From the IMG/VR virus record IMGVR_UViG_3300012000_002412, positions 101,276-165,275 of that record: a stretch of 64,000 bases of DNA; one strand, given 5' to 3'. This document shows positions 44,147 through 64,000 of this stretch, piece by piece. Every line of letters begins with the position of its first letter. Position 1 is the first letter of the stretch. This stretch comes from a virus. Position numbers and translations under genes: made by a program. Under the pieces are notes generated by a model. That model saw only the letters and a list, made by a program, of their open reading frames with translations, did not search any database and had not been told where the DNA came from.

Positions 44147-44149
44147 GAT

Positions 44150-44878
44150 ATGAAATATTTAAAAAAGTTTAACGAAGAATTAAGACCACAGACTTATATG
44201 TCTGCTGCTAGAAAACTTAATAAAATGGGACATACTGATAGATCAAATGACTTAAAAGATTGGGCTCGTGAAATGGAAAGTCGAGAAGAAATGATTAAAT
44301 GGAAAGATAGAATCGAAGATTATGCCCAATTTGGAACTTTTACTATGACTATCAAAAATGAAGAGACTGGTGAAACATTAACTGGTGATTTCAATTTAGA
44401 CATTTCATTTGATGAGATGGCTTTTTCGGATGAACCAGAAAGTGGTATTTCATTTTTCTTAGGTCTAATTCCAACTTCAGAAGATTTAATCAAACAATAT
44501 ATGGAACTTTGTCCAGATTATGACTTTGGAAATGGTTTCTTCTGGGGAAAAATATTCAATTTAGAATTTAGAATAGTTGATGATAGAGTTCAATTTACAA
44601 AATGGAATTTCTGGGATTATGATTCTGATATGAATGGATTAGTCGCTTTCTCAGATAGAGGATCGGCGAACAGATTTAAAAACTTACTAATACAGCTCTT
44701 TACAAATAGTGAATTAAACTATCCTTCTGGATATACGGATGTTGATTATATGTATGAGAAATTAGAATCTTGCATTTTAGCCGAGAATTCATTTTCTTCT
44801 GATTATGGATTTAAGTTAGAGGATGCTGCTGATTATATAAGAACGATATCTCCAAATTTATTATACTCAACATTATGA
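44150..44878 (+). CDS. cargo paralog family member 2, 242 aa
   Basis: MKYLKKFNEEL, then RPQTYMSAARKLNKMGHTDR and a helix (NDLKDWAREME), are the two conserved N-terminal blocks. It has the later ALVAFSDRGSANRFKNLLIQ-like block (here GLVAFSDRGSANRFKNLLIQ). It begins 4 bases after member 1 and its stop overlaps member 3's start by 4 bases. Function unknown; see member 1 for the family reasoning. Confidence 0.8.
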   Translation: MKYLKKFNEELRPQTYMSAARKLNKMGHTDRSNDLKDWAREMESREEMIKWKDRIEDYAQFGTFTMTIKNEETGETLTGDFNLDISFDEMAFSDEPESGISFFLGLIPTSEDLIKQYMELCPDYDFGNGFFWGKIFNLEFRIVDDRVQFTKWNFWDYDSDMNGLVAFSDRGSANRFKNLLIQLFTNSELNYPSGYTDVDYMYEKLESCILAENSFSSDYGFKLEDAADYIRTISPNLLYSTL

Positions 44879-45669
44879 AATACTTAAAAAGATTTAATGA
44901 AGAATTAAAAGCATCTACTTATAAAAGTGCTGCTACTAAATTGACTAATATGGGTCATAAAAGAAGAGGTGCCGAAATGTTAGATTATGCAACTCAAAGA
45001 GAGAAACAAGAAGAAAGAATGAGACTTCAAGAAACTAGAGACGAGATGAGTAGATTTGAACCGTTTAATCTTATTATTAAAGGAAATCAAGAAAAGATGG
45101 GCAAGTTTTTCATTATACCAAATGCTGAAATTGATTGGTACAAAGATTTACTCTGGGATTGGATATGGGAGGGTATGGAATATGGAATTCAACTTCCGTT
45201 TGAATTTGGAATTATGATGGCAGATGAAGAAACCGAAGAAACATTTAAAGATTGGAATTGGTCACCAGAACAATGGGATGGTGTTTCTTATCCAAATAGA
45301 ATGTATTTGTCTATAAATAGTGTTAATTCACCTCTTTTTGATTCTTTCGATAGAGATATGTTTTATTTTGCTACAAGGGCAGATGCTATGAGATTTAAAA
45401 AGATGCTTGTTGAAATGTTAGAAGGAAAAAATGATTGGTATTGGAAAAAATGGAATCCAAATGGTATTGTTAATAGAATAAAAGAAGTTGTATCACCTGA
45501 ATTTGTTTCCGAATTGATTGAAAAACTTGCAACAAACGAAGAAGAAAGAGGCGAGTTAGAAGGAGCCGAACAAATAAGAAATCTTTTATCTGAAGTTGAT
45601 AAGGTAAATTATCAAAATGTTATAGACTCTGCAAAAAACATAAAAATAAATCAAATATACCGAGATTAA
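44875..45669 (+). CDS. cargo paralog family member 3, 264 aa
   Basis: MKYLKRFNEEL is followed by KASTYKSAATKLTNMGHKRR and GAEMLDYATQREKQ. The later conserved block reads YFATRADAMRFKKMLVEMLE. A Trp-rich stretch (WYKDLLWDWIWEGMEYGIQL) stands between. The extra C-terminal helical part (residues 215-264) is not obvious in members 1 and 2. Its last base is the first base of member 4's ATG. Confidence 0.8.
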   Translation: MKYLKRFNEELKASTYKSAATKLTNMGHKRRGAEMLDYATQREKQEERMRLQETRDEMSRFEPFNLIIKGNQEKMGKFFIIPNAEIDWYKDLLWDWIWEGMEYGIQLPFEFGIMMADEETEETFKDWNWSPEQWDGVSYPNRMYLSINSVNSPLFDSFDRDMFYFATRADAMRFKKMLVEMLEGKNDWYWKKWNPNGIVNRIKEVVSPEFVSELIEKLATNEEERGELEGAEQIRNLLSEVDKVNYQNVIDSAKNIKINQIYRD

Positions 45670-46946
45670 TGAGATATCTAAAAACATATAAAGAAGCTGT
45701 TGCTGTTTATCAAAATCACGAATATAAATCAGTGATTGAAGATATGTTATTAGATTTAAGAGATTCTGAGTTTCATACAACCGTTAGTATTCAAAATTAT
45801 CATAATCAACACGAATCAGTGAGAGTTCATGTCTCAAGAGAAAGAGAATTTAGTTGGGGTGATATATCTGGAGTTATATCTGATATTTCAAACTATATGA
45901 AATCAGAAGGCTACAACATTGTTGATTTTACTTGTAAAGATGATGTCGATTTTAGAGAAAATCCAGATGATTACGAAGTTAAAACAATAAAACCGGGGTA
46001 TTTCTGGGGAACTGATAGTAGTGGTAAAATAAAATCTGAATTAAAAGATGTTTTACAATTTCCCCATATTACTCAAACATCAGTTTATGAACCAGGAACA
46101 TTTAATAAAATTACTAAATGGACTTTTGATATTAAATTTGAAAAGAAATTAATTGAAGTTGATAATACTGAGAGTATTTCAAGATTATCTACAAATGAAG
46201 AATTAAGTCCATCTACTTATTTAAGTGCTGCTGATAAACTTAAAAAAATGGGTCATATAAGAAGACCAGAAGTTTTATCAGATTATGCTAAAGAAATTCA
46301 GGAGAGAGAAAAGAATGCAATAAAAAAGAGAGTATTAGAAGAAGCTAAAAAATTAGGCCAATTTCAATTAAAACTTGTAAGAGGTGGAGGAAGTGAAGTT
46401 AAATTTACAAATTGTTATTTAAGCTTACTTTTTAATGATAGTTATTATCATGAAAATTTAGAAGAATGGTTAGATGGAGACAGACAAAATCTTTGGATAG
46501 GTATTATGCAAGGTGTTCATCCAGTTGGTGAAGAAGATGCTGCAAATTTAGAATGGTATTTTGGAGATGATATCTCTGGATATACCAATTCACATAATGG
46601 AATTATTTGGTTACAGGATATTTATATCTGTCTTTCAAACAGTGATTATAAATCAGCAGAAGGTCAGAAGCTTCCTATGAGACCAACTGGTCAAATATCT
46701 ATTGAAGGTTCTGAGTTCAGTGAAGTTTATTTTGCAAACAGAAGAGAAGCTATCAAATTTAAAAATCTAATTGTAGGTTTGTTTGAAGGAGATATTGAAT
46801 ACATACAGCCAAATGGGAAAGATTTCAAAGAACAAATATTAGAAGAGCTTTGTGAGAATGACCAAAGACCAGTAGAACTTTCAGAATTTGAAGAACTTAT
46901 TGATAAGTTAAGAGTGACAAGATTAAATAATTTATATAGAGATTAA
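45669..46946 (+). CDS. cargo paralog family member 4: fusion of two cargo proteins, 425 aa
   Basis: The protein has its own N-terminal peptide, MRYLKTYKEA, and an unrelated first domain up to about residue 170. Then the family's N-terminal blocks reappear inside the chain: STNEELSPSTYLSAADKLKK, MGHIRRPEVLSDYAKE (176-209), followed by the usual domain with FANRREAIKFKNLIVGLFEG. This looks like the fusion of a separate cargo gene to a fourth copy of the family that lost its start. If the inner EEL site is still cut, two mature proteins would result. Confidence 0.8.
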   Translation: MRYLKTYKEAVAVYQNHEYKSVIEDMLLDLRDSEFHTTVSIQNYHNQHESVRVHVSREREFSWGDISGVISDISNYMKSEGYNIVDFTCKDDVDFRENPDDYEVKTIKPGYFWGTDSSGKIKSELKDVLQFPHITQTSVYEPGTFNKITKWTFDIKFEKKLIEVDNTESISRLSTNEELSPSTYLSAADKLKKMGHIRRPEVLSDYAKEIQEREKNAIKKRVLEEAKKLGQFQLKLVRGGGSEVKFTNCYLSLLFNDSYYHENLEEWLDGDRQNLWIGIMQGVHPVGEEDAANLEWYFGDDISGYTNSHNGIIWLQDIYICLSNSDYKSAEGQKLPMRPTGQISIEGSEFSEVYFANRREAIKFKNLIVGLFEGDIEYIQPNGKDFKEQILEELCENDQRPVELSEFEELIDKLRVTRLNNLYRD

Positions 46947-49069: not shown

Positions 49070-49101
49070 TTTGCCACATTCAATTTTTTTTACTAAATTT
49101 G
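49070..49101 (+). promoter_or_regulatory. host-type promoter of umuDC
   Basis: TTTG at 49070-49073, a 20-base spacer and TAAATTTG at 49094-49101. The ATG at 49108 is 6 bases on. No clear LexA-type palindrome is seen around it. Confidence 0.65.
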
Positions 49102-49107
49102 TCTATT

Positions 49108-49425
49108 ATGGATGGTTTTACAATAAACACAAAAACAACTGGATTTGGTTCTCCTGCTCGGGCTTACTCAACAAAAAGATTAGATCCAAACGACTTACTT
49201 ATAACAGACCCTTATTCAACATTTTTTTTTCAATGGGAAGGTGAAGAAAAAGGGGGCTTAAGTCCGGGTGATTATTTAGTGGTTGATAGAGCCGCTTTGC
49301 CAAACCCAGATGATTTGGTTGTTTTTAATGGCGAAGAAAAACTTGAATTGGATTTATTTAATAACATCAACCCTGATAAACTATGGGGTGTAATAACTTG
49401 GAAATTATGCCAGTTAAAAAAATAG
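49108..49425 (+). CDS. umuD: UmuD-like protein with degenerate active site, 105 aa
   Basis: The chain follows UmuD closely: [34 protein letters not shown], then [20 protein letters not shown] and VVFNGEE. Where active UmuD and LexA have GDSM, this protein has W-E-G-E, so the catalytic Ser is replaced (Gly45 by alignment), and the Lys of the dyad is not at its usual place. It also starts almost at the cleavage site, like processed UmuD'. The ATG at 49108 is preferred over a TTG within the promoter. Its end overlaps umuC. It probably works as a constitutive UmuD'-like partner. Confidence 0.85.
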
Positions 49426-50588
49426 CAATCATCGATTGTAATAATTTTTACGTCTCTTGTGAAAGGTTATTTAATCCCTCTCTTAAATCAAAGCCAACAG
49501 TAGTTCTTTCAAACAACGATGGTTGTGTTATTGCTAGAAGCCAGGAGGTTAAAGATATGGGTGTTAAAATGGGACAACCTGTCTTTAAACTAGAACAATC
49601 AGTTAAAGAAAAAATGCACAAGTTTTCTTCTAATTATGTGCTTTATGGTGATATCTCTGATAGAATTTCAAATATCCTAAAAAGATTTTGCGATAGAGTA
49701 GAAGTTTATTCCATTGATGAGTCATTTTTAGACCTTAGTGATATACCGGACTCCGAGATAGTCGACTATTTACAAATCATTAAATCCGAGGTGCTTAGAC
49801 TAACTGGAATTCCGGTATCTATTGGAGTGGGTCCAAATAAAACAATTGCTAAGTTGATGAATTATGTTGCAAAGAAAGATTCAAAGTGGGCCGGTGTTTG
49901 TTCTTATTGGACTGGTCCAAACATTGATGATTTAGACATTGAAGATGTTTGGGGAATCGGCAGGAAGTGGAAAAAAAAGTTAAATTCAATTGGTGTTGAT
50001 TATATAGGGCAATTTAAGGAAATGTCACCATATCAAGTAAAAATGATGTTTACCGTAGTCGGATATAGAACCTGGATGGAGCTACATGGGAGTTTTGTTT
50101 ATGACATTGAAACTAAATTCAAAAAACCTAAAGTGGTTACTTCTTCTAGGAGTTTTGGTAGAACCGTTTGGCAAAAAACACAAGTCCAAGATGCCATTTG
50201 GAATTTTATAGAAGACGCTTCGTCTAAGTTAAAATCTGAGCAGTTAAAAAGTAAAACTGTTTTAATTTTTGCAACAACCAACCGTTTTGAAGATGATTAT
50301 TTTGTTTGGTCAAAAAAAATACAATTATTCGAACCATCGAATGATATTCAAAATATTTGGAACGAAATATTTGACCTACTTGAAGAAATTCCAACTAAAC
50401 TTTGGGCTAAGGCAGGAGTTATGTTTTTTGATTTGGTTCCAGAAAACTTCCATTCGCCTAAATTATTTAACGAACAATTTAGTCAAAAACAAAAACCCGA
50501 AATTAAAAACCAAATGTGGATGACACGCCGCGATTTTCTTTCAAAAAATTGGACTACTGATTGGAGTGATGTCCCTAAGTTAAATTAA
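49407..50588 (+). CDS. umuC: Y-family DNA polymerase V subunit UmuC
   Basis: A translesion polymerase that copies past UV and other lesions. Motifs: [20 protein letters not shown] (first metal Asp), [20 protein letters not shown], the catalytic [11 protein letters not shown], and [32 protein letters not shown] is the helix-hairpin-helix. The end ([11 protein letters not shown]) matches UmuC tails. The ATG at 49407, overlapping umuD by 19 bases, is preferred to one 24 bases upstream. At 393 aa it is slightly shorter than the E. coli protein (422). Confidence 0.95.
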
Positions 50589-50965: not shown

Positions 50966-51328
50966 TTACCAACTTTGACTTTTATTTTTTACAACTTTGA
51001 AAAGCGCCTTTTCAATGTTATACCCATTATTGATAAAGTATTTTAGACTATCGACATTACAGTGTGCATAAATATTTTTATCCGAGTCCCAAATTTTGGA
51101 TTCTCTGTAATTCCAAAGTAATTTATAGATACCTCTTCCTCGCCAATCGTCGTGAACATAGGCATGACAGAGATAAATAACTTTCTCCTGTTCAACATAA
51201 GATACAACTCCAACGAGTTTATCTTTGATGATACAACCAAAGTAAACAGCATTTTTGTCTAGGAGATCCGGTTTAATTTGACCAAATGCTTCTTCAACCT
51301 TTTCATAACTTACTTTTGTTATTTCCAT
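50966..51328 (-). CDS. GNAT-family N-acetyltransferase, 120 aa
   Basis: The acetyl-CoA-binding motif A is IYLCHAYVHDDWRGRGIYKL (R-G-x-G-I/L). Before it stands the usual beta hairpin (YFGCIIKDKLVGVVSYVEQE), and after it YFINNGYNIEKALFKVVK as motif B. It is short for the family but keeps the core. The substrate is unknown; in phages such enzymes may modify host proteins or antibiotics. Confidence 0.82.
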   Translation of the reverse strand: MEITKVSYEKVEEAFGQIKPDLLDKNAVYFGCIIKDKLVGVVSYVEQEKVIYLCHAYVHDDWRGRGIYKLLWNYRESKIWDSDKNIYAHCNVDSLKYFINNGYNIEKALFKVVKNKSQSW

Positions 51329-51358: not shown

Positions 51359-53053
51359 TTAGAGTATGATAATCTTTTTGCATTTTCCGGTTTCAACTAA
51401 TTTAAGAAAATAAACTCCAGAGTGTAATCTGATATTTTCAGATACTTTTTTAGCCGATTTAGTCAAAACCAACCTACCATTTTCATCTACAATCAACCAA
51501 TCTTTAGTGGAATCATTTACAACTGTTATGTCACCAAAACTGGGATTTGGATAAACGTTAATCAACTGGATTTCTGATACACCCACCTCTAAAGTAGAAT
51601 CGCTTAGTGCCGGCCAGTCAGCTGGGTTGTCAATTAGAGAAGGTAGCGTATCTAAAACTGGTGGATAAACCGTTTGTAAATAGACTACAGTGTCAATTTG
51701 GCAACCGTGAGCGTCTTCTAAAGTAATATGGTAGTAACCAGAGTCTAAATTGGAGTTTTGTAAACCAGTCATTCCATTAGACCAGGAGGTGACTACAGGT
51801 TGTTGTAGACCAGATGGATTAATTAAAATTTGACCTGCTGACTGAGTCCAACTGGTGGATATTTGAATGTTTGTTTGTGAAAATTGTGAAGCCGCTAAAA
51901 CGGCTGCTGCGCTGTTTAGCCTGCCGGAGCCAAGTAGACCTAAGTATGATGTGTTATTTGGATAGATATCTACACTGGTCGATTTTAGTATAAATTCAAT
52001 ATCATAATTAGTGAGACACGGATTTTTAGTCAACATAAGAGCAATTGTTCCGGTAACAAAAGGAGCCGCATAAGAAGTACCTGAAGACTCGATATACCAG
52101 CCGGATACTGGACAAATCGGCACATCGTATCCTGGAGCTACTAAATCTACAGTTAAATTGTGTTGATGTGTAGATGTGGTATCACCGGATATTGTTTCGT
52201 GGTTATCAGTTTTTCCAATTGAACTTACGCTAAAAACTTGAGCATAAGAGGCAGGGTAAACCGCAGCTCCTGCCCAGCCGCAAGTGTTTCCGTTACCGGC
52301 AGCTGCTACTAAAAATGTTCCTAAAGACCAGACTTCATCAATTACATCTTTTTCATATTGATTGAAAAAACAGCCCGAAGTCCAACTAATGTTTACTACA
52401 TCAACGCCATCATAGGCCGCTTGTAAAATTCCGTTATAGTTCATGTTATAAAAGTTGATACTTGAGTTAAAACCAATAGAACTTAGCCCGATGCCGTTGT
52501 CAGTATTTCCGGCAGCAATTACAGAAACAGCATTTCCGTGAGAAGTAGTTTGGGTATTGTTCTGGTCCCAATATAAAACTTTACCGACTAACTCTTCATG
52601 TGTCACATCTATATTTTGATCAGAAATGCCAATTTTGAAACTAGCACTGCCTTTGGTTATATGCCAAGCTTGATTAGAGCCAATTAAGTCGACTGCCCAG
52701 TTTGAACCAGAAAATAAGTTCCAATCGTTGGGAGTGTAGAGTGGTTGATAATTTGGTGATAATTGAGCCGAGTCTGATCCAACAACGCGATTAATTGACG
52801 ATTGTAAATCTTTGATATCACATTGACAACTTATTTCCCAGATAGTAGATAGTTTTTTTGATTTTGCCACAGGCAAAGCTTTTTTAATGTCTGTGATTTG
52901 ATATTGTTGAATGGAATTATCGATGATTGAATCTTGAAAAGACCATTTTTGATTTATAAATTTTGGCTCATTTTCTAATCTTATCCAGATGGATTTTTGA
53001 CAAAATAAATTGAACGAGATTAATAGAATTATTAAAAGTGATAAATTTTTCAT
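51359..53053 (-). CDS. secreted subtilisin-like protease (S8) with T9SS type A sorting domain
   Basis: Residues 1-19 are a signal peptide (LSLLIILLISFNLFCQ). Residues 20-115 are a probable propeptide. The S8 catalytic domain has Asp145 (IGISDQNID), His172 (SHGNAVSVIAAG), the oxyanion Asn254 (AAAGNGN) and Ser327 (ESSGTSYAAPFVTGT). An Ig-like part (about 395-470) follows, and the last 75 residues (INVYPNPSFGDITV, GVYFLKLVETGK) are a T9SS type A C-terminal domain. The protein should cross the outer membrane by the host's T9SS and stay at the surface. Such a gene is remarkable in a phage. Confidence 0.9.
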   Translation of the reverse strand: MKNLSLLIILLISFNLFCQKSIWIRLENEPKFINQKWSFQDSIIDNSIQQYQITDIKKALPVAKSKKLSTIWEISCQCDIKDLQSSINRVVGSDSAQLSPNYQPLYTPNDWNLFSGSNWAVDLIGSNQAWHITKGSASFKIGISDQNIDVTHEELVGKVLYWDQNNTQTTSHGNAVSVIAAGNTDNGIGLSSIGFNSSINFYNMNYNGILQAAYDGVDVVNISWTSGCFFNQYEKDVIDEVWSLGTFLVAAAGNGNTCGWAGAAVYPASYAQVFSVSSIGKTDNHETISGDTTSTHQHNLTVDLVAPGYDVPICPVSGWYIESSGTSYAAPFVTGTIALMLTKNPCLTNYDIEFILKSTSVDIYPNNTSYLGLLGSGRLNSAAAVLAASQFSQTNIQISTSWTQSAGQILINPSGLQQPVVTSWSNGMTGLQNSNLDSGYYHITLEDAHGCQIDTVVYLQTVYPPVLDTLPSLIDNPADWPALSDSTLEVGVSEIQLINVYPNPSFGDITVVNDSTKDWLIVDENGRLVLTKSAKKVSENIRLHSGVYFLKLVETGKCKKIIIL

Positions 53054-53066
53054 TGGGTTTTTTTTA

Positions 53067-53080
53067 TTTTATATATAAAT
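53067..53080 (-). promoter_or_regulatory. late-type promoter box
   Basis: ATTTATATATAAAA on the minus strand, 13 bases before the ATG at 53053. Confidence 0.45.
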
Positions 53081-53242
53081 CAAATTTCGCGGAGATGTTT
53101 GTGTTTATTGAGTTTTAGAGAAATTACACAGATATACATAGCATTAAATAAGTAAAAATACTTAATTAGGATTTTAAAAATAATAGATAATAAACACGAC
53201 TAAAAAAATATAAACATTTCTCTATTTTCAAATAAAAACCGT

Positions 53243-53818
53243 ATGAAAAAAATATTATTTATAATTTTAACTATTTCTAATTTCTGTTTCTCACAGAACA
53301 TATCAGAATACCAATTAATTGATTGGGAAAATAACCATAAACAATCATACAACAAGATTCAAAATGGTCAAGCAGAGCTAAAAAAAGACAAAGAAAACTA
53401 TCAATTATTTACTACTAATTCAAAAGTGAATCAATTGGTTTGTGATTCAATTGATAATTTAAGATTAAGATTGGGACTAAGACCAGGATCAATTAGTTAT
53501 CAAACAAATTGGGTTAATGGACTTACCCTCGACTTTTGTGAAATGTTCTCGGATTCCCTAAATCAACCGGTAATACTTAGGGTAAAAAATTCAGGTGATA
53601 GGTGCAAAGTTTGCGCCAAATCGATATTTGACGTACTTAAAAAAGACTCCAGTATTTCATCAATCATTAAAAACAAGAGACTAAAAAAATACTCTACTCT
53701 TTATTTTCAATCAAGCTTAGATGGCGAGTGGTCTTCTTCATTTATCATTTTTTGCTATAAGATGAGATGGCGAAAAACCGAGATTATTGGGTATGAATTA
53801 CCAGATGATTTAAGATAG
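53243..53818 (+). CDS. secreted protein of unknown function, 191 aa
   Basis: The N-terminus KKILFIILTISNFCFSQNIS is a signal peptide with a typical Bacteroidetes FSQ cut site. The mature part has CxxC-like Cys pairs (DRCKVCAKSIFD) and a Trp/Ser-rich end. No family recognised. The 190 bases upstream hold no gene that I can see. It stands between the protease and a membrane protein gene, and may belong to a surface or lysis set. Confidence 0.7.
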   Translation: MKKILFIILTISNFCFSQNISEYQLIDWENNHKQSYNKIQNGQAELKKDKENYQLFTTNSKVNQLVCDSIDNLRLRLGLRPGSISYQTNWVNGLTLDFCEMFSDSLNQPVILRVKNSGDRCKVCAKSIFDVLKKDSSISSIIKNKRLKKYSTLYFQSSLDGEWSSSFIIFCYKMRWRKTEIIGYELPDDLR

Positions 53819-53819
53819 A

Positions 53820-54167
53820 TTAGAAAAAGAGAGAAATCCATTGAGCTGTTTTGTATCCAGCAAATGCTCCCAGTGCAGCAGACCCAGGAAGGATAATAAA
53901 TCGACCTAATCTTGTTTGGTATTTAGCCCTGTTGACAATATATGACATCAGACTATAGTAGACTAGAAAGTTAATAAAAACCATAACATCTAGCTCTTTA
54001 GAGATAAAAAGAACTATTGAGTTTCCAACAAAGCCCCAAAGAAAATTTGTGATAGTTTCTCTAATTAGTTCACCTGGTGTGGTAATTGCCCCATAGATAT
54101 TGATTTTTTTTTGTAAAATACCACTATCTTTGTTGACCTTACTTTCTTTTTCTGCTTTTTGTTTCAT
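53820..54167 (-). CDS. membrane protein, 115 aa
   Basis: The ATG at 54167 is preferred to a GTG 18 bases upstream. After a charged N-terminus come likely membrane segments near residues 45-60 (NFLWGFVGNSIVLFIS), 65-80 (VMVFINFLVYYSLM) and 93-112 (FIILPGSAALGAFAGYKTAQ). No family recognised. A role in superinfection immunity or lysis is possible, but nothing in the sequence shows it. Confidence 0.65.
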   Translation of the reverse strand: MKQKAEKESKVNKDSGILQKKINIYGAITTPGELIRETITNFLWGFVGNSIVLFISKELDVMVFINFLVYYSLMSYIVNRAKYQTRLGRFIILPGSAALGAFAGYKTAQWISLFF

Positions 54168-54207
54168 ATAATTTAATATCACCAAATGTGATTTTGTTTA
54201 ATCTATT

Positions 54208-54239
54208 TTTGGACAATTCTGATTAAATTACTATATTTG
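54208..54239 (+). promoter_or_regulatory. host-type promoter
   Basis: TTTG at 54208-54211, a 20-base spacer and TATATTTG at 54232-54239. The ATG at 54244 is 4 bases on. Confidence 0.7.
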
Positions 54240-54243
54240 TAGT

Positions 54244-54435
54244 ATGATAAAAAATTGTCAAGAGTGCCCCTATATTATTAGAAACCGTCATAATGATAAA
54301 TTTGTCGAGTTTGTAAATAAGTTGGGACTCAAACACAATTGTCATATGACACCGGGTGTCAAAGATTTTTGGAATATTAATAATAAAAAATGGGAATGTT
54401 ATGGTCGAAAGAGAGATAATTTACGGAGTTTGTGA
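54244..54435 (+). CDS. small cysteine-containing protein, 63 aa
   Basis: It begins with NCQECPYIIRNRHNDKFVEF, then a helix and HNCHMTPGVKDFW, and a late ECYGRK. The two Cys near the start with the later Cys/His residues could bind one zinc or an iron-sulphur cluster. It has a good promoter and leads a run of five overlapping plus-strand genes (54244-55930). No family recognised. Confidence 0.65.
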   Translation: MIKNCQECPYIIRNRHNDKFVEFVNKLGLKHNCHMTPGVKDFWNINNKKWECYGRKRDNLRSL

Positions 54436-54622
54436 TAAAACAGGAAAATGCGATTCATATTTTGGGTTCTTCAAAAATATCGAAGATGCCAAGCACGAAG
54501 TTGAGCTGCAGGCAAGTAGACTTAAAGAAGACTTGGGTATGATGGACATTCAAATCCAAAACGATAGAGCGCTATTTGATGATAAATTAGTAGTGGTAAT
54601 TCATAAATATGTATTGAGATGA
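54401..54622 (+). CDS. small hypothetical protein, 73 aa
   Basis: The ATG at 54401 overlaps the previous gene by 35 bases; an earlier in-frame start at 54356 is possible but less likely. The sequence (VEREIIYGVCDKTGKCDSYF, then a helix) is alpha/beta. No family recognised. Confidence 0.55.
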   Translation: MVEREIIYGVCDKTGKCDSYFGFFKNIEDAKHEVELQASRLKEDLGMMDIQIQNDRALFDDKLVVVIHKYVLR

Positions 54623-55065
54623 AAGAAATAGAAACAAAATTTGGAACCTATATAGAAAGAGAAAACGACCCTACAAAATTGACTGGTGATAAAATCAAGG
54701 TCTTTGTAGAGAGATTGAAAAAAATTGGAATTGAGGTTAAACTTGTGGGTAATTTCCCTTGGGTTTATATTGATGAGATCTGTGGTAAAAAAGTGGAAGA
54801 AAAATTTCGTGGAAATCATGGGTTTACTTTGATATTTCTTCCAGGTAGAAATGATAGTCCACCATCAGAGTTTACGGACATTACAGAAATATTCAAACTT
54901 ATACGAAAGTATAATAAAGAAGCGAAATTTAGACAAATTGAAAAGTTCAAAGCGCAGATTGAGATTTTGAATGAGATTAGAGGTGGATTTAATACGGATA
55001 ATAGATTTTATATTGATGATAAAATTGAACAACTTGAACAACAATTAAAAGAAATTAGAAAATGA
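54619..55065 (+). CDS. hypothetical protein, 148 aa
   Basis: An alpha/beta N-terminal part (KFGTYIERENDPTKLTGDKI, VERLKKIGIEVKLVGNFPWV) and a long C-terminal helix pair (FKAQIEILNEIRGGFNTDN, IEQLEQQLKEIRK). It overlaps both neighbours by 4 bases. No family recognised. Confidence 0.65.
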   Translation: MKEIETKFGTYIERENDPTKLTGDKIKVFVERLKKIGIEVKLVGNFPWVYIDEICGKKVEEKFRGNHGFTLIFLPGRNDSPPSEFTDITEIFKLIRKYNKEAKFRQIEKFKAQIEILNEIRGGFNTDNRFYIDDKIEQLEQQLKEIRK

Positions 55066-55424
55066 AAAATAATAAATTGTTCTTGGATGACATTAGAATT
55101 CCAAAGGAGGCAATTAATCTAGTTCCCAATGGGTTTAATGATTTTTATTTACAGAACGATTGGGATATCGTAAGAAACTACGACGAGTTTGTTTTACATA
55201 TAGAAATGAATGGAGTACCTGAGTTTGTATCATTTGATCATGACTTGGCTGATTTCCACTACAAATTGGAAAAAACTGGTCTTGACTGTGCAAAATTTCT
55301 TGTTGAATATTGCGCTGACGAAAATTTGCGATTGCCCCAATATCTGGTTCATTCGGCCAATCCGTCTGGAAAAGAAAATATTGAGAAGTTTTTAGAAAAC
55401 GCCAAAAAACATTTAAACATATAA
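55062..55424 (+). CDS. cyclic-phosphate processing receiver-like (cREC) protein, 120 aa
   Basis: The start LFLDDIRIPKEA has the paired acidic residues of receiver domains. VSFDHDLADF and the end LVHSANPSGKENIEKFLENA are hallmarks of the cyclic-phosphate processing receiver family, which replaces the phosphoacceptor set with a His/Asp pocket and has been linked to RNA-end repair by comparative genomics. It has no output domain. It may work with the RNA ligase and 2H protein of this phage; that link is inference. Confidence 0.75.
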   Translation: MKNNKLFLDDIRIPKEAINLVPNGFNDFYLQNDWDIVRNYDEFVLHIEMNGVPEFVSFDHDLADFHYKLEKTGLDCAKFLVEYCADENLRLPQYLVHSANPSGKENIEKFLENAKKHLNI

Positions 55425-55426
55425 AT

Positions 55427-55930
55427 ATGAATTTAGACAAATTAACAATCGGAGAACTTATTTCATTAAGAGATGAAGTTAATGGTAGAATATATGAATA
55501 CACCGATGGTTATTTATACATTTGTTCCGTTCGACAATTTGGAAGTGTTTGGGAAGAAAGACCAAGTAGTTTATGGTCTCTAAAGGAACTTTGCGATTCA
55601 TACAATGGTCACAACGGCATTGTCGATGTTTATACTAACAACGCTAATTTGAAATTTCCAGAAATGGAATTTTACAACTGGGGTGATGTTTTTTATATTA
55701 AATCAGAATATGATTATCGCGAGTGGATTAAATTTAGAAAAGAAAAAAAATTCATTGAAGATGTCACTCAAAGAGTTAATGAGTGGGAAGAGTGCAAAGA
55801 CAAACCATTAATGAGGCGACCTATGTTTGATCCCATCTGGACTAAAGAACAGGTCGAGGAGTTTACTAATGAGTTTAGGAGTAAGACTTGGGATTTCACC
55901 GAACCAATCAGTTTAAAGGTAGAAGATTAA
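55427..55930 (+). CDS. hypothetical protein, 167 aa
   Basis: A soluble protein rich in Trp and Glu (RQFGSVWEERPSSLWSLKEL, EWEECKDKPLMRRPMFDPIW). No recognised domain. It begins 2 bases after the cREC gene and ends one base before the uvrC ATG, so it belongs to the same operon. Confidence 0.65.
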   Translation: MNLDKLTIGELISLRDEVNGRIYEYTDGYLYICSVRQFGSVWEERPSSLWSLKELCDSYNGHNGIVDVYTNNANLKFPEMEFYNWGDVFYIKSEYDYREWIKFRKEKKFIEDVTQRVNEWEECKDKPLMRRPMFDPIWTKEQVEEFTNEFRSKTWDFTEPISLKVED

Positions 55931-55931
55931 A

Positions 55932-57200
55932 ATGAACATTAAAGATTTTTCGATTCCCAAAACCGCCGGTTGTTATCTTTTCAAAGATGACAGGGATCAA
56001 ATTATTTATGTTGGAAAATCTAAATTTCTACCTAAAAGAGTCACCAGTTACTTTCAAAAAAACCATACTTGTCAGAAAACAATAAAATTAGTCACTGAGA
56101 TTAATTCAGTTGATTTCATATCTACTGAATCTGAAAATGAGGCTCTTGTTTTAGAAGAAGATTTAATCAAACTCTATAAACCAAAGTGGAATATAAAAGG
56201 AAAAGACGATAGAACAATTAGAAGTCTTTTGCAATTAGGTGAAGGAGATTGGAAAAAAATTGATTTAGTTTTTCCCCACCAACAAATCACCGGTGAAATC
56301 TTAGCCGAGTTTACATCAGGTCAAGTGGCAAGAGAATGCCAAGATATATTAGGTCAGCTTTTTGTACTTCGCAGTTGTTCTTATAATTTGACTTTGGAAA
56401 ATATCGAGGCTAAAAAATTCAAACCGTGTTTAGACTATCATATTGGAAAATGCCAGGCTCCCTGCATTGGTTTAGCAAGTAGAATCGAATATTTAGACTC
56501 GATTAAGAGGATTAGAGAAATATTTAATTTTAATTTTAGCCCAGTTGAAAAGAAATTCAAAAAGCAAATGAAGTGGCACTCTGACAGATTAGAATTTGAA
56601 AAGGCAGCTGTTATTAAAAATAAACTGGAATTATTGGATAGACTAAAGGGTCTGATAAAGCCCCTTGAAGTAGTTAAAAAAAGAAAAACAGCCGATGATA
56701 TTAAACAAAAACTGGGCTTAAAATTTACACCAATTGTAATCGATGCTTTTGATAATTCACATACTTCTGGAGTTGATGTTGTTTGTGGTATGGTTAGATT
56801 TACCCTTTTTGAGGCCACAAAAAATGAATGGCGAAAGTTTAATATTAAAGAAGGTTCAGGAGCCGATGATTTACGCAGCTTCAGTGAAGTTTTAAGAAGG
56901 AGATTCAAAAGATTAATAGAAGAAAAACTCCAGATACCAAATTTAGTTATCATTGATGGTGGTAGAACCCAGTTATCGGTGGCTTTGGCTATTATTAAAG
57001 AATTTGATTTATCTGATAAATTAGATTTGATTTCGATATCAAAAGGAGTTGGTCATAAACCAAGAACTATACACCTAACTTCTGGTGAAGATGTCGAGAT
57101 TGATAAATTTTTCGAACTGGGTCATATTTCAAATGAAGTCCATCGATTCTCACTGCATACACATAGAGTTAAAAGGGGTAAGTCGCTATTTGGTAAGTAG
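55932..57200 (+). CDS. uvrC: short UvrC-type nuclease (no HhH domain)
   Basis: Residues 10-95 are the GIY-YIG domain that makes the 3' cut (TAGCYLFKDDRDQIIYVGKS). About 150-185 is the Cys-rich iron-sulphur-type region (CSYNLTLENIEAKKFKPCLD, CQAPC). A UVR-like helix pair lies at 205-240. The RNase H-like domain for the 5' cut has VIDAFDNSHTSG and LVIIDGGRTQLSVAL. At 422 aa it lacks the C-terminal helix-hairpin-helix pair of normal UvrC (about 600 aa). It may use host UvrAB, or act alone on the phage's behalf. The UVR-motif protein at 31814 may partner it. Confidence 0.88.
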   Translation: MNIKDFSIPKTAGCYLFKDDRDQIIYVGKSKFLPKRVTSYFQKNHTCQKTIKLVTEINSVDFISTESENEALVLEEDLIKLYKPKWNIKGKDDRTIRSLLQLGEGDWKKIDLVFPHQQITGEILAEFTSGQVARECQDILGQLFVLRSCSYNLTLENIEAKKFKPCLDYHIGKCQAPCIGLASRIEYLDSIKRIREIFNFNFSPVEKKFKKQMKWHSDRLEFEKAAVIKNKLELLDRLKGLIKPLEVVKKRKTADDIKQKLGLKFTPIVIDAFDNSHTSGVDVVCGMVRFTLFEATKNEWRKFNIKEGSGADDLRSFSEVLRRRFKRLIEEKLQIPNLVIIDGGRTQLSVALAIIKEFDLSDKLDLISISKGVGHKPRTIHLTSGEDVEIDKFFELGHISNEVHRFSLHTHRVKRGKSLFGK

Positions 57201-57224
57201 AAAATTCTATTTAATAATTAGAAA

Positions 57225-57235
57225 TTAATATATAC
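57225..57235 (+). promoter_or_regulatory. late-type promoter box
   Basis: TTAATATATAC, 5 bases before the ATG at 57241. Confidence 0.45.
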
Positions 57236-57240
57236 CAAAT

Positions 57241-58530
57241 ATGGATATTATTAAATTCACTAAATTTTTCAAACAGTTAAATGAGGCACAAACTCTTGAT
57301 TTGCCGATTTTAGACGTAGTTATTGACGACAGTGGATTAATCTATAATGGTGAAGAAGCCCCGCTGATTAAGGGGAGTGTTGAAAGGGCAGCTGGTAGAA
57401 AAGTTGTCAGGATATTAGGAAAAGATAATAAACTCTATCCTGCTGGAATTGATAAAAATGGAAATGTCATTTCGGTAAACAAAGATGAAGAAAACAGGGC
57501 ATTAAATTTCTTAGGAGAACCAATTAAAGTTCCACAACACATTCAAAAAAAGTATAAAATTGGATTTGACTATTATTATGATGCTCCTGATTGTGATTAC
57601 TATGCAGTTATTCCAATTATACCAACAGGTTGGGTCAATGTAAAAATTGATATGGAGATTGTTAAAAGGGTAAAAAGATTTGCTAAAAATTTAGGAACAA
57701 ACAATAGGGGCTATGAGTCTTTTATATCAAAATTGTCTGAATTTGAAAAATTATCAAAGTTGAACCGTTCACAACAATATATCTCCAGATTAAAAAGGGG
57801 CACAATTCAAAAGGAGATGTCAACTATTCTACTCCTACACTACATAAATGAAGTTAAAGACTTTTTTAACCCATCACAAAGTGGATTTCTTTTTGAGTCA
57901 TTTATAGCCGGTTTGATACCGGATTCCAGAGTTAAAGAAGACAATTCACCAGTTGATATCAGAACAGCTAAAGACCGATATCAATTAAAATTTGTAGACC
58001 ATAAAACACAATATGTCGATGTCACAAAGGACACTTTACCAAACCTATCACCGTGGTTAGAACACTATATGATTGCCTTAAAATTCGTTGATAAAATTGA
58101 ATTATATATCATTGGTGGGCAAGAATTAGAAAGGAGATGGGAAGCAGGAACTTTAGAGGGTCTAATTACTGCTGGGGGAAAACCCGATCCGATTACAGGT
58201 AAAGTCAAAAGTGGTCCAAAATTTTCAATGAGTAAAGTAATATCACAATCTTCTGATTTTGGACTGGTAAAAAAATTTACTATTGAATTAAACGATATTG
58301 AGGGAAGGATTAAAAACTTAGGTGAAAGTCTTAAATCAACACTTGATGAACTTTATAAAGAATTAAGCGAGTTTCAATTTAATGTTGAGACAATCATCAC
58401 CGGTGTAAATGAAAAGGGTAAAGTGATTAGAGACCAAAGTGAGTTTGAAGTTTATTATCTTTTAGCAAACAGAAATATTTTAAATCTTAAAGATCATTTG
58501 CAGAAATTGGTTGAAGATATCAACAAATAA
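57241..58530 (+). CDS. targeting-peptide cargo protein, possible PD-(D/E)XK nuclease, 429 aa
   Basis: MDIIKFTKFFKQLNE is a longer variant of the peptide. In the centre, SGFLFESFIAGLIPDSRVKE, then PVDIRTAKDRYQLKFVD, has the E...D...Q-x-K layout of restriction-like PD-(D/E)XK nucleases (Glu in the helix, Asp before the strand, QLK on the next strand). No named family is recognised. The C-terminal 90 residues are a coiled coil (IEGRIKNLGESLKSTLDELY). If packaged, it could be a nuclease delivered with the DNA or used during maturation. Confidence 0.7.
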   Translation: MDIIKFTKFFKQLNEAQTLDLPILDVVIDDSGLIYNGEEAPLIKGSVERAAGRKVVRILGKDNKLYPAGIDKNGNVISVNKDEENRALNFLGEPIKVPQHIQKKYKIGFDYYYDAPDCDYYAVIPIIPTGWVNVKIDMEIVKRVKRFAKNLGTNNRGYESFISKLSEFEKLSKLNRSQQYISRLKRGTIQKEMSTILLLHYINEVKDFFNPSQSGFLFESFIAGLIPDSRVKEDNSPVDIRTAKDRYQLKFVDHKTQYVDVTKDTLPNLSPWLEHYMIALKFVDKIELYIIGGQELERRWEAGTLEGLITAGGKPDPITGKVKSGPKFSMSKVISQSSDFGLVKKFTIELNDIEGRIKNLGESLKSTLDELYKELSEFQFNVETIITGVNEKGKVIRDQSEFEVYYLLANRNILNLKDHLQKLVEDINK

Positions 58531-58651
58531 TAATCAAACTCGACATTTTAATAATCCAAACCACTGGTCTATTCAATTAGTTAAATATTTGATTTTTTAA
58601 TTGTTAAAACTCTTAATCATTTATTTATATATATCATAAATCCGATAAATT

Positions 58652-61315
58652 ATGAAAATTTCTAAGTTTATTAATCTTATTTTTATAACACTTTGTGTTA
58701 GGATATTTTCACAGTCAATCACTTTTAATTATACCGGATCGCCTCAAACTTGGGTCGTGCCACCGTGTGTTACACAGATTAACGTCACTGCGGCTGGGGC
58801 TAAAGGTGGTGGTGCTGTTGGTGGAAATGGCGCCGTGATATCAGCGACTCTAACTGTGACTCCTGGTCAAACACTAAATATCTATGTAGGTGGAATGGGA
58901 AGTTGTGGAAACAATTCTGGTGGTTGGAATGGTGGAGCAACTGGTTTTGCCTCTAACCCGGCTAATGTCAGCTATAATTCTTGTGGAGGAGGTGGTGCCT
59001 CTGATATTAGAATTGGAGGAAACGCCTTAGCTAACCGAGTTATGGTTGCCGGTGGAGGTGGTGGAAAAGGTGGAGGATCAACCACCACTATACAAGGTGG
59101 GGCTTCAAACTGTAATAACGGCGCAAATGGTCAAAATTCATTTGGATTCGGTGGTGGCGGTGGAACTCAACTCAGCGGAGGTGCTGGTGGAACCCCGTGG
59201 GCTGGAACCCCTCCTGGTGGAAGTTCTGGTGTGTTGGGTAACGGTGGTCAAGGTGGATTGTGGCAAACTGCATCTGGTGGTGGTGGCGGAGGCGGCTACT
59301 GGGGCGGAGGCGGTGGTGGAAACGACGGTTGTTGCACCGGAGCCAATGGTGGAGGCGGCGGAGGTGCTGGTTCATCTTTAGTTCCGGCAGGTGGAATCTG
59401 TGTTGCAAACAACAACAACGGAAATGGATATGTCACTATCACTTGGGTGTTAGGAACTACCATCAATGTTCAAAACGGTGGACCCTACTGCGCTGGTCAA
59501 ACAATAAATTTATCGGCCACTAATGGTGCTCTCAGTTATCAATGGTCTGGTCCAAATGGTTTTCAATCGAATCTACAAAATCCAACTATTACAAATTCTA
59601 CACCACTTGATAGTGGAATTTACACGCTAACTTATACTTCACAAAACTGCAATAACACAACAACGACACTTGTTGTAGTCAATACCCCAATAAACCCACA
59701 GTTTTCTGCCATAAACCCGATTTGTCAATTGGCTCCAGTCCCACAATTACCAGGGCTTTCAAATAATAATCCACCAATACTGGGAAGTTGGAATCCTGCA
59801 ACAATCTCATCACAGGTGGTTGGAACATCTAATTTGATATTTACACCTAATGCAAATTTCTGTGCTAACACGGCAATACTTTCAGTCACGATTTTACCAA
59901 ATGAAACCCCTACATTTAATCCAATAAACCCGATTTGTATAGGAACTCAACCGCCACAGTTGCCAAATCCATCTACAAATCCAACCCCGTATGTAGGCAG
60001 TTGGTCACCGGCTCTGATTTCCACAGTTTCGGCCGGTCAATTTAATTTTCAATTTACCCCAAATGCTGGTCAATGTGCGGTGCCAACTCAGATTGTGGTT
60101 ACAATATTGAATTACACCGAGCCTACTTTTGCGCAAATTAATCCAATTTGTCAGTTTACCTCCGGGGTTCAGTTGCCGGTAAGTTCAACTAATCAACCGG
60201 CAATTTTGGGTAGTTGGAATCCTAGTCAAATTAACACACAAACTGCTGGAATTTTTACCTACGAGTTTACTCCGAATCCTTTTCAGTGTGCTGATACAGC
60301 TTCTATGCAAATTGTAATTAACCCGCTTATCATTCCACAGTTCAATGTTGTAAGTCAAGTTTGTCAGGGTGATGTTGGTCCCAACTTTCAAACCGTATCT
60401 AATAACGGTATCACTGGAACTTGGACACCACCAGTGATAGATAGCTCAATACCTGGTTCTTTTCAGTTTCAATTCACACCAAATCCTGGTCAGTGTGCTG
60501 ATACGATAGCTACGAACATTAATATAGTTCCATCTATACCACCTCAATTTCAATCTGATACTTTATCTGGTTGTAATCCACTACAAGTTAGCTTTACAAC
60601 TACTCCGGTTTTAGGAGCTCAGTATCAATATTTCTGGAATGGAAACTCGCTTGGTGTTGGAAATAATATCAGTTATATGTTTACTACATCAGGATGTCAT
60701 ACTATTACTTTAGAGTATAATTTACTTGGATGTATTGAAACTACTACTTACCAAGATTATATCTGTATTGAGAATTATCCAAACACCAGTTTTATTGCCG
60801 TTCCCAATGTGCTTTCTTCTACATCTGAAACAATCGATTTTACTAATACAACTGTTGGTGCGATTAGCTATTTTTGGGAATTTGGTGATGGTCAAACTGG
60901 GGACCAATTTCAAGGACCACACTCATATGTCGCTGTAACTGAAAACATTTTAGTTCAATTAACCGCCTCAACAGCACTTGGGTGTAGCACTAAATATCAA
61001 CTAACACTACCAGTAATTACCCAGCCAATTTATTATGTTCCAAACACCTTTACACCCGATACCGACGAGCATAATCGCACTTGGTATCCAGTATTTACAA
61101 CCGGGTTTGACCCCTATAATTTTGAATTAAGAGTCTATAATAGGTGGGGTGAAGTAGTATGGGAATCACACGACTCCAAGGCCGAGTGGGATGGAACTTG
61201 GGGCAAAGATGGATTGGAAGTTCAAAATGGTATTTATAGCTGGGTGATAAAATATCAAAGTTTAGAAACCGCTGATAAAAATGTTGTTTCAGGATTTTTG
61301 AATGTTTTAAGGTAA
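58652..61315 (+). CDS. large secreted glycine-rich adhesin-like protein with T9SS type B domain, 887 aa
   Basis: Residues 1-21 are a signal peptide ending in FSQ. Residues 45-265 are very Gly-rich (VTAAGAKGGGAVGGNGAVIS, SGGGGGGGYWGGGGGGNDG), like tips of phage adhesins and bacterial glycine-rich surface proteins. An Ig-like unit is followed by four repeats of about 80 residues, each with (I)NPICQ, GSWNP and FTPNxxQCA (350-640). A PKD-like unit (FWEFGDGQTGDQFQGPHSYV) follows. The last 90 residues (NTFTPDTDEHN, YNRWGEVVWES, GIYSW) are the gliding-motility C-terminal domain, a T9SS type B signal. It would be exported by the host's T9SS. Confidence 0.88.
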   Translation: MKISKFINLIFITLCVRIFSQSITFNYTGSPQTWVVPPCVTQINVTAAGAKGGGAVGGNGAVISATLTVTPGQTLNIYVGGMGSCGNNSGGWNGGATGFASNPANVSYNSCGGGGASDIRIGGNALANRVMVAGGGGGKGGGSTTTIQGGASNCNNGANGQNSFGFGGGGGTQLSGGAGGTPWAGTPPGGSSGVLGNGGQGGLWQTASGGGGGGGYWGGGGGGNDGCCTGANGGGGGGAGSSLVPAGGICVANNNNGNGYVTITWVLGTTINVQNGGPYCAGQTINLSATNGALSYQWSGPNGFQSNLQNPTITNSTPLDSGIYTLTYTSQNCNNTTTTLVVVNTPINPQFSAINPICQLAPVPQLPGLSNNNPPILGSWNPATISSQVVGTSNLIFTPNANFCANTAILSVTILPNETPTFNPINPICIGTQPPQLPNPSTNPTPYVGSWSPALISTVSAGQFNFQFTPNAGQCAVPTQIVVTILNYTEPTFAQINPICQFTSGVQLPVSSTNQPAILGSWNPSQINTQTAGIFTYEFTPNPFQCADTASMQIVINPLIIPQFNVVSQVCQGDVGPNFQTVSNNGITGTWTPPVIDSSIPGSFQFQFTPNPGQCADTIATNINIVPSIPPQFQSDTLSGCNPLQVSFTTTPVLGAQYQYFWNGNSLGVGNNISYMFTTSGCHTITLEYNLLGCIETTTYQDYICIENYPNTSFIAVPNVLSSTSETIDFTNTTVGAISYFWEFGDGQTGDQFQGPHSYVAVTENILVQLTASTALGCSTKYQLTLPVITQPIYYVPNTFTPDTDEHNRTWYPVFTTGFDPYNFELRVYNRWGEVVWESHDSKAEWDGTWGKDGLEVQNGIYSWVIKYQSLETADKNVVSGFLNVLR
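59690..60520 (+). repeat. four protein-level repeats in the adhesin
   Basis: Four related units of about 65-80 codons share the order C(Q/I), a Pro-rich stretch, GSWNP or GTWTP, SxxxGxxxFxFTPNxxQCA. Sequence divergence between them is high enough that they are old duplications. Confidence 0.7.
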
Positions 61316-61977
61316 TGCGTAGAGTTTTAATTTTTCTTGGCCTTCTTCTATCTTTACTGATTCAATCTTGCGGTAGTTTATCTTCTTTAAATTCAGGTGA
61401 TTTGACAGGTAGTTGGAAAATAAAGCAACAAAAAGTTTATTTGATTGATTCTTCTGATATCAACATCTACTTTGCAGACACAAATTTAATACTCCCAATT
61501 TCTGCAACAGAAAATAAAATAACACATCCTCAAAAACTACATAAACAATCTTTTGATTTAGATGTTGTTTATATTCCAGTCAAATTGAGATTTCAACAAG
61601 ACACCATTCCAACTCAAATAAGTAGCAATTTGAACGCTCAAATTTATTTGGGATTGAGATGGGATTTTTCAAACCTTTCTTACCAGAAACTGATGTCTAA
61701 TAGATGGTTGCTTCAAAAAAAACATTTCGCTATTTCAACAGGTCTGGTGTTTGGTGTTGGTGGAACTTCAATTTCATACTATAACACCAAAAACAAATAC
61801 TCTGGTCAATATGATGGAATCGTGTTGACTTCGGGTGTTTCTACCATATTAGCCTATAAAAACTTGACTTTTGGAGGCAGTCTGTGCATTGACCAATTGA
61901 CTAATCAGCATAAAAACCTTTGGATTTATCAAAAAAAGCCATATTTTGGTCTTGTTGTTGGATTAAACATCAACTAA
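61315..61977 (+). CDS. outer-membrane-type lipoprotein, 220 aa
   Basis: The N-terminus RVLIFLGLLLSLLIQSCGSL is a type II signal peptide with the lipobox cysteine at residue 19. The mature part is beta-rich with an end (YFGLVVGLNIN) like beta-barrel or beta-sandwich proteins of Bacteroidetes outer membranes. Its ATG overlaps the last base of the adhesin gene, so the two should be made together; it might anchor or help present the adhesin. No family recognised. Confidence 0.75.
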   Translation: MRRVLIFLGLLLSLLIQSCGSLSSLNSGDLTGSWKIKQQKVYLIDSSDINIYFADTNLILPISATENKITHPQKLHKQSFDLDVVYIPVKLRFQQDTIPTQISSNLNAQIYLGLRWDFSNLSYQKLMSNRWLLQKKHFAISTGLVFGVGGTSISYYNTKNKYSGQYDGIVLTSGVSTILAYKNLTFGGSLCIDQLTNQHKNLWIYQKKPYFGLVVGLNIN

Positions 61978-63301: not shown

Positions 63302-64000
63302 TTAAAGTGGTAGATACCTAAAGTTTTTAACCTCAAAGAAATATTGACGGTCTAAATCAATAATATCTTTTTGTAAAGAGTTATTAATTATCACATTCAT
63401 TTTGTGACCCATTATCTGAGACATTGACTCCTCATCAGAAACCACTCTTACCAATTTATTATCATAATAAAATTTCAGCGAATCAGGCTGCCATTCTAAT
63501 TTATAGTTTATCCACGACTTAGAAGGGTCTTTTAAGGAAAATCGGTGTTTTTTAGCACCTAATGAATAATTCTTTGGAGAAGTTCCAAGATGGATATTAG
63601 ATTCACACCTCCAAATTTTTCCAAAAATCATTTCTCCAGACCAGTTAAAATAAGAACCCCCTGAATTTGAATAAGCTTCTATAATATCAATCTCTGGTGG
63701 CCAAGATTTCCAAGACCAGGCCCAAAATGCTGGCCAAGCAAAAGGTTGCCTGTGTGGTAATTTAGCATCCAATTCAAATGTGCCATACGAGAATTGTTCG
63801 GTGCAGGAAACTAAACCAACTCCGAAAGGAATTATACCGGATTCAAATTGCTTTGGGTTTTTTTGAACTCCTAATTTTAAGACATCACCTTCTAAAACAA
63901 CTTGTGACGGGTCATACCAAACTTTTGACCCACCTGGATGGTGGTCTCCCCATCTTTCTTGTGTTATCCATTCAAAACCAGACCAATTTATTCTTTTCAT
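63302..64000 (-). CDS. GH16-like glycoside hydrolase, 232 aa (may be 5'-incomplete)
   Basis: A concanavalin-like fold with the GH16 catalytic signature E-I-D-I-I-E (Glu103, Asp105, Glu108) in WPPEIDIIEAYSNS. FSYGTFELDAKLPHRQPFAW is the strand before it, as in laminarinases and related beta-glucan or agar hydrolases. The first Met is the last codon of the window, so the true start may lie further out; no signal peptide is seen. It could be a depolymerase on the virion that opens host exopolysaccharide. Confidence 0.82.
   Translation of the reverse strand: MKRINWSGFEWITQERWGDHHPGGSKVWYDPSQVVLEGDVLKLGVQKNPKQFESGIIPFGVGLVSCTEQFSYGTFELDAKLPHRQPFAWPAFWAWSWKSWPPEIDIIEAYSNSGGSYFNWSGEMIFGKIWRCESNIHLGTSPKNYSLGAKKHRFSLKDPSKSWINYKLEWQPDSLKFYYDNKLVRVVSDEESMSQIMGHKMNVIINNSLQKDIIDLDRQYFFEVKNFRYLPL

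Follow-up and report, generated by a model that had tools for sequence, protein, structure and literature searches.

Two genes of a huge phage encode predicted cargo of the host type IX secretion system

Two genes near the end of a viral sequence record raise the question of whether a phage can send proteins of its own to the surface of the cell that it infects by using the host type IX secretion system (T9SS). The window analysed here is a stretch of 64,000 nucleotides, corresponding to positions 101276-165275 of the 165,275-base IMG/VR record IMGVR_UViG_3300012000_002412, which is a fragment and not a whole genome. Because the window is one end of this fragment, the genes in question lie close to the record end. 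They encode a protease and a glycine-rich adhesin-like protein, to which a preliminary description had assigned T9SS sorting domains of type A and type B, respectively.

The first gene (51359-53053, minus strand) encodes an S8 (subtilase) protease of 564 aa, identified as type A cargo by Pfam and TIGR profiles. The protein matches Peptidase_S8 (PF00082) with an E value of 7.7e-25, and in its catalytic domain (residues 139-362, 51968-52639) the triad Asp145/His172/Ser327 and the oxyanion Asn254 are all in place. It belongs to the Peptidase S8 family and is predicted to be proteolytic, the Asp motif being D-Q-N and not D-T-G, a variant that also occurs in the bacterial homologues. The type A sorting domain was confirmed at the C-terminus (residues 500-563, 51365-51556), where the scores for Por_Secre_tail (PF18962, 36.5 bits against a cut-off of 27) and TIGR04183 (36.9 bits against 23) both exceed the curated cut-offs. 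Signal peptides in the window were assessed by eye and with a crude rule only, and by both the N-terminus of the protease (MKNLSLLIILLISFNLFCQ) reads, as had been described, as a signal peptide, with MKNLSLLIILLISFNLFC followed by Q (52997-53053). An exact-pattern scan of genome contigs gave no close relative of the protease, whereas a whole-genome search did find homologues. These are type A subtilases of 706-726 aa from Flavobacteriales (L095-L102), with 47-55% identity, which have the domain order and the D-Q-N variant in common with the phage protein; the latter is about 140 aa shorter and is without two of their Ig/SprB-like repeats.

The second gene (58652-61315, plus strand) encodes a glycine-rich, adhesin-like Ig/PKD protein of 887 aa, assigned to type B cargo by Pfam and by its homologues in bacteria and in the phage genome LR745206. 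Its glycine-rich domain (residues 46-242, 58787-59377) is like the GRD of ALK/LTK (PF12810, 1.5e-8), and it is within this domain, at residues 161-237, that the structure model has low confidence. A stalk of Ig-like/PKD domains (59477-60994), two of them PKD, was recognised from profiles and the structure model. The type B/CHU_C sorting domain occupies residues 796-883 (61037-61300) and scored 51.6 bits with PF13585 (cut-off 27; 57.5 bits in the genome search), whereas with TIGR04131 it reached 30.5 bits, under that profile's cut-off of 35. The type B label therefore rests on Pfam and on homology, the protein aligning with type B homologues throughout, and on these grounds the domain proposed in the preliminary description was upheld. 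The probable signal peptide covers residues 1-20, MKISKFINLIFITLCVRIFS followed by Q (58652-58711). The N-terminus (MKISKFINLIFITLCVRIFSQS), with an Arg close to the core, fails a strict signal-peptide rule, whereas the homologues are unambiguous at the same place, so that the signal peptide previously attributed to this protein is probable at most.

Homologues of the 887-aa protein are found in Flavobacteriales assemblies, some of them labelled Crocinitomicaceae. They include glycine-rich type B proteins of 888-897 aa (L047-L056, L062) that are homologous over the full length, with 63-70% identity; in several of these bacteria the gene comes after one or two longer type B paralogues, whereas the phage gene is alone. 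Protease homologues with a type A domain (47-55%) occur in several of the same genomes, and each such genome has 35-51 type B matches. Another homologue over the whole length, with the glycine-rich part best conserved, is encoded in LR745206, a complete phage genome of 634,780 bp. In a tree of the glycine-rich domain the phage and bacterial sequences are interleaved, and the well-supported branches require two or more switches between phage and bacteria. The phage sequences do not form one clade, so the genes moved more than once, a pattern that points to repeated exchange with such Flavobacteriales hosts. For the stalk, the best matches in both fold and sequence were with the grappling-hook protein GhpA of Aureispira (9flp and related entries), whose Ig-like stalk repeats and C-terminal domain match those of the phage protein. 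However, GhpA has 5,898 aa against 887 aa in the phage, and hook formation is nowhere indicated for the phage protein.

Since the closest relatives of both cargo genes are bacterial, it could be argued that this is host DNA attached to the phage contig through mis-assembly or contamination, which would overturn the whole reading. The 887-aa gene is, moreover, near the record end, and a second assembly breaks in its glycine-rich part. Nevertheless, this second contig (IMGVR_UViG_3300008962_002324), which comes from a different metagenome, shows 99.99% identity to the window over positions 10,574-59,151 and, as an independent assembly, spans the protease and enters the 887-aa gene before it ends. 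The GC3 of the two cargo genes (0.264 and 0.255) and their codon fit fall inside the range of the other genes, which is to say that their codon usage is phage-like; the raised GC of the 887-aa gene most likely reflects the glycine richness of its product. In the related viral contigs L080-L082, type B genes are placed between homologues of the UvrC-like gene of the window and of its GNAT, S24-like and UmuC genes, and curated circular huge phages carry the same kinds of genes amid syntenic phage genes. Protein divergence from every bacterium found is at least 30%. Mis-assembly was rejected on account of the independent assembly, the shared viral neighbourhood and the phage-like codon usage, and the stretch is taken to be phage DNA, the chance that host DNA was joined on in this way being very small.

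The phage itself appears to be a huge tailed phage related to Mahaphage-type genomes. Its DnaK-like protein is 57-64% identical to those of LR745206, LR756502, LR756504 and LR756501 (634-735 kb), its topoisomerase is 74-77% identical to those of LR745206 and LR756502, and two of these phages show synteny with parts of the window. Within the Mahaphage clade these four genomes are the largest, and phages above 634 kb have been predicted to infect Bacteroidetes (PMC7162821). Judging from shared genes only, the homology of the cargo to surface proteins of a T9SS-bearing group suggests that the host is one of the T9SS-bearing Flavobacteriales.

When phages were searched for sorting domains, a check that the preliminary description had proposed for Bacteroidetes phages, each of the four largest published phage genomes (634-735 kb) proved to have type A domains, and two also have type B. 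Neither type turned up in a relative of 484 kb, in two Lak phages or in four isolate phages of Bacteroidota. SprA was present in all seven candidate host genomes searched (Flavobacteriales), and was not found in G000, a fragment, nor in the eight other phage records searched. A T9SS-tagged gene is thus present in a phage record in which no translocon was found, SprA being the one component tested and G000 a fragment; judged by SprA, the phages bring cargo and not the secretion machine. Two of the huge phages (W01c and W02c; L032:6838-7218 and L036:7509-7859) also encode bare sorting-domain proteins of 116-126 aa, with little beyond a signal peptide and a type B domain, which are possible T9SS plugs or deletion remnants. 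The 126-aa gene of W01 is at the locus where W02 has a type B gene of 1,670 aa and may therefore be such a remnant. Among the bacterial matches listed, frames shorter than 150 aa were seen only near contig ends.

The type B domain has a wider distribution. At least 559 matching stretches were obtained from viral contigs, a figure which is not a count of phages since IMG/VR includes proviruses and may include host sequence. One common viral form is a single chain of 650-820 aa. The other is a three-gene operon (contigs L081, L083, L084, L085, L118, L129, L149, L164, L165, L168, L184, L186, L187, L192 and L195-L274) in which every gene has its own predicted signal peptide: gene 1 is variable (about 193-632 aa), gene 2 encodes about 187 aa with two Ig-like domains, and gene 3, also of about 187 aa, carries the type B domain. 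The operon is often placed within the tail gene module: at least nine contigs have it next to the tail tube gene, and in several it lies between the tail sheath/tube and baseplate hub genes; these tail gene surroundings indicate that the contigs are phages.

Subunits 1 and 2 of this operon end in a near-invariant C-terminal tail, ...I-x-H-N (or H-D). At 56 distinct viral loci, which were gathered with an alignment in which every row has an H-N or H-D end (the scan patterns themselves being mid-protein), gene 2 ends in HN in 54 and in HD in two. Where a gene precedes it, this ends in HN in 53 cases and in HD in two, both HD loci having HD in both genes, and the gene that follows has a type B domain in 49 of the 49 readable loci. 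Among the 1,041 distinct ORFs of at least 150 aa in the viral loci, 133 end in HN or HD, all 133 with the expected form of tail, and no ORF with such an end was found in the bacterial loci examined. In the structure model of gene 2 (mean pLDDT 89), two complete domains are followed by a tail of about 10 residues that has no assigned strand and contains the motif. Across 395 Bacteroidia genomes searched, the gene-2 domain pair was seen mainly within long proteins, and no clear stand-alone gene 2 was present among the matches listed for these genomes. The strict motif P-I-x-H-N was not found in G000, W02-W05 and the two Lak records; W01 has a single match, which is not at the end of a secreted ORF. 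Inteins were considered as the cause of the H-N ends and dropped, because the pieces have separate starts and signal peptides and there is no additional sequence of intein size. At one locus (L272:3306-11491), further H-N-tailed secreted proteins of 384 aa and 455 aa surround the gene 2/gene 3 pair, which suggests that the tail marks interchangeable subunits.

From this we tentatively suggest, at slightly less than even odds, that a dedicated surface structure of several subunits is encoded by phages whose Bacteroidota hosts have a T9SS. Its variable tip and its conserved connector of two domains would each carry a signal peptide and would be joined by their I-x-H-N/H-D tails to a small type B protein that uses the host T9SS as gateway and anchor, and the 887-aa protein would be the single-chain form. 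That the subunits without a sorting domain leave the cell by tail-mediated joining to the gene 3 product is a guess. If the proposal is true, the I-x-H-N tail is a new subunit-joining or sorting signal; the three-gene form in any case defines a puzzle, namely how proteins without a T9SS domain reach the surface with one that has it.

Returning to the two genes of the window, intact type A and type B sorting domains that are homologous to those of T9SS-bearing Flavobacteriales are best read as a sign that the host T9SS is used. As the cargo is homologous to proteins of SprA-bearing genomes, SprA was not found in the phages and such genes recur in huge phages, we put the probability that phage-encoded cargo is exported by the host T9SS at about 0.82. 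The cargo genes would be transcribed in the infected cell, and the Sec pathway would export both proteins and remove their signal peptides. The T9SS of the host would then recognise the C-terminal domains, take the folded proteins across the outer membrane and either attach them to the surface or release them, the phage contributing cargo only. The infected cell thus probably displays virus-encoded proteins on its outside. Of the earlier claim that the phage sends a protease and an adhesin to the surface of its host, the phage origin of the genes and the intact sorting domains hold as observations, while secretion is retained as the reading that best fits the sequence.

With regard to what the phage gains, we infer that surface remodelling which hinders other phages is the likeliest benefit, an idea that is nonetheless more doubtful than probable. 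A rod-like, host-mimicking adhesin could cover or replace host surface proteins that phages use as receptors, and the surface protease could trim such proteins, so that competing phages would be excluded. The roles suggested in the preliminary description, namely superinfection exclusion, lysis of neighbours, clumping and receptor masking, keep the status of hypotheses. We prefer this idea because mutations in T9SS/gliding genes of Flavobacterium columnare give phage resistance (PMC9233685), which implies that surface proteins dependent on the T9SS are important in infection. A second reason is that the 887-aa protein resembles a host surface protein, its stalk being best matched by the adhesin GhpA. 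An auxiliary role in nutrition, in which the surface protease and adhesin would aid the attachment and digestion of polymers by the infected cell during a long infection, seems unlikely. In its favour, the cargo has homologues among the ordinary surface enzymes and adhesins of bacteria, a GH16-like gene is present at 63302-64000, and T9SS-tagged glycoside hydrolases are known from Cryophage (PMC7468147); however, the commonest phage cargoes found are non-enzymatic proteins of Ig type.

We regard as distinctly unlikely a connection with the virion, whether by late display or release and binding to progeny tails or by a part in virion assembly or adsorption. The position of the three-gene operon beside tail tube genes speaks for it, such tail-module placement of related type B genes in other phages also fitting a late function, and similar glycine-rich domains occur in phage proteins of unknown function (PHROG 5811, 7388 and 1589). 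Nevertheless, signal peptides and sorting domains would remove the proteins from the cytoplasm, where tailed virions are assembled, and no tail gene was recognised next to the cargo in the window or in L218, L233, L241 and L196. It is highly improbable that the genes were acquired passively from hosts with no gain for the phage: this would agree with the scattering of the phage sequences in the glycine-rich domain tree, but the frames are open, the catalytic residues intact and the sorting domains conserved, and the genes recur across phages.

Phage-encoded T9SS cargo has been reported before. In Cryophage, type A cargo and a proposed hijack of the host T9SS were described in 2020 (PMC7468147). 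The cargo there consists of endoglucanase, GH39 and PA14 proteins, whereas the window, from a huge phage, encodes a subtilase and a type B protein, for which bacterial homologues and a recurrence across huge phages were identified. In crAss-like cluster 2, genes with T9SS sorting domains near the head module, in one case fused to BACON domains, were noted in 2019 (PMC6949934); this is other cargo in another phage group, and the link to T9SS is merely mentioned there. In the open-access literature we found neither phage type B cargo nor T9SS cargo of the largest phages reported, and nothing on the three-gene form; the split type B form is apparently undescribed. The proposed phage hijack of the Bacteroidota-specific T9SS, so far reported for one phage group, is extended here to type B cargo and to the largest phages known, and concrete proteins are now at hand to ask whether virus-encoded proteins re-coat infected cells.

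The surroundings of the two genes contain further secretory candidates. A 191-aa protein with a predicted signal peptide and no recognised sorting domain (53243-53818, plus strand) is encoded divergently from the protease, and a predicted lipoprotein of 220 aa with the lipobox LIQSC (61315-61977, plus strand), which had no family match in profile searches, overlaps the stop of the 887-aa gene. The protease, the 191-aa protein, the 887-aa protein and the lipoprotein are thus grouped within 51.4-62.0 kb, and the crude rule flagged only two others among the 184 ORFs of the 165-kb record. A GNAT acetyltransferase gene (50966-51328, minus strand) lies 30 bp downstream of the protease gene and is likely to be co-transcribed with it. 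In L080-L082 a 72% identical copy immediately follows the T9SS genes. A GNAT gene adjoins T9SS cargo in three different contexts (window 50966-51328, L081:10211-10561 and L184:2256-2582). A UvrC-like GIY-YIG/RNase H protein (55932-57200) and, at 49099-50588, a UmuC-like polymerase together with the small protein ahead of it, by eye S24-type-like, all have homologues in the syntenic phage contigs L080-L082. A scan for Bacteroidota-type promoters gave 14 matches against 8.6 expected, none of them directly upstream of the protease or the 887-aa gene. The glycoside hydrolase family 16 gene is at the very end of the record and is possibly truncated.

Elsewhere in the window, four paralogous proteins form a tandem array (43265-46946), which is duplicated in LR756502 (L036) too. 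Many otherwise unlike proteins of the record have an N-terminal motif like M-K-x-(I/L)-K-x-(Y/F)-x-x-F-x-x-E; in the window the genes that bear it have their low coordinates at 4617, 6199, 7664, 10667, 13777, 21642, 40194, 41919, 43265, 44150, 44875, 50618 and 57241, and others are found elsewhere in the record. We take this motif to resemble the capsid-targeting peptide of T4, and the proteins that carry it are possibly packaged in the head.
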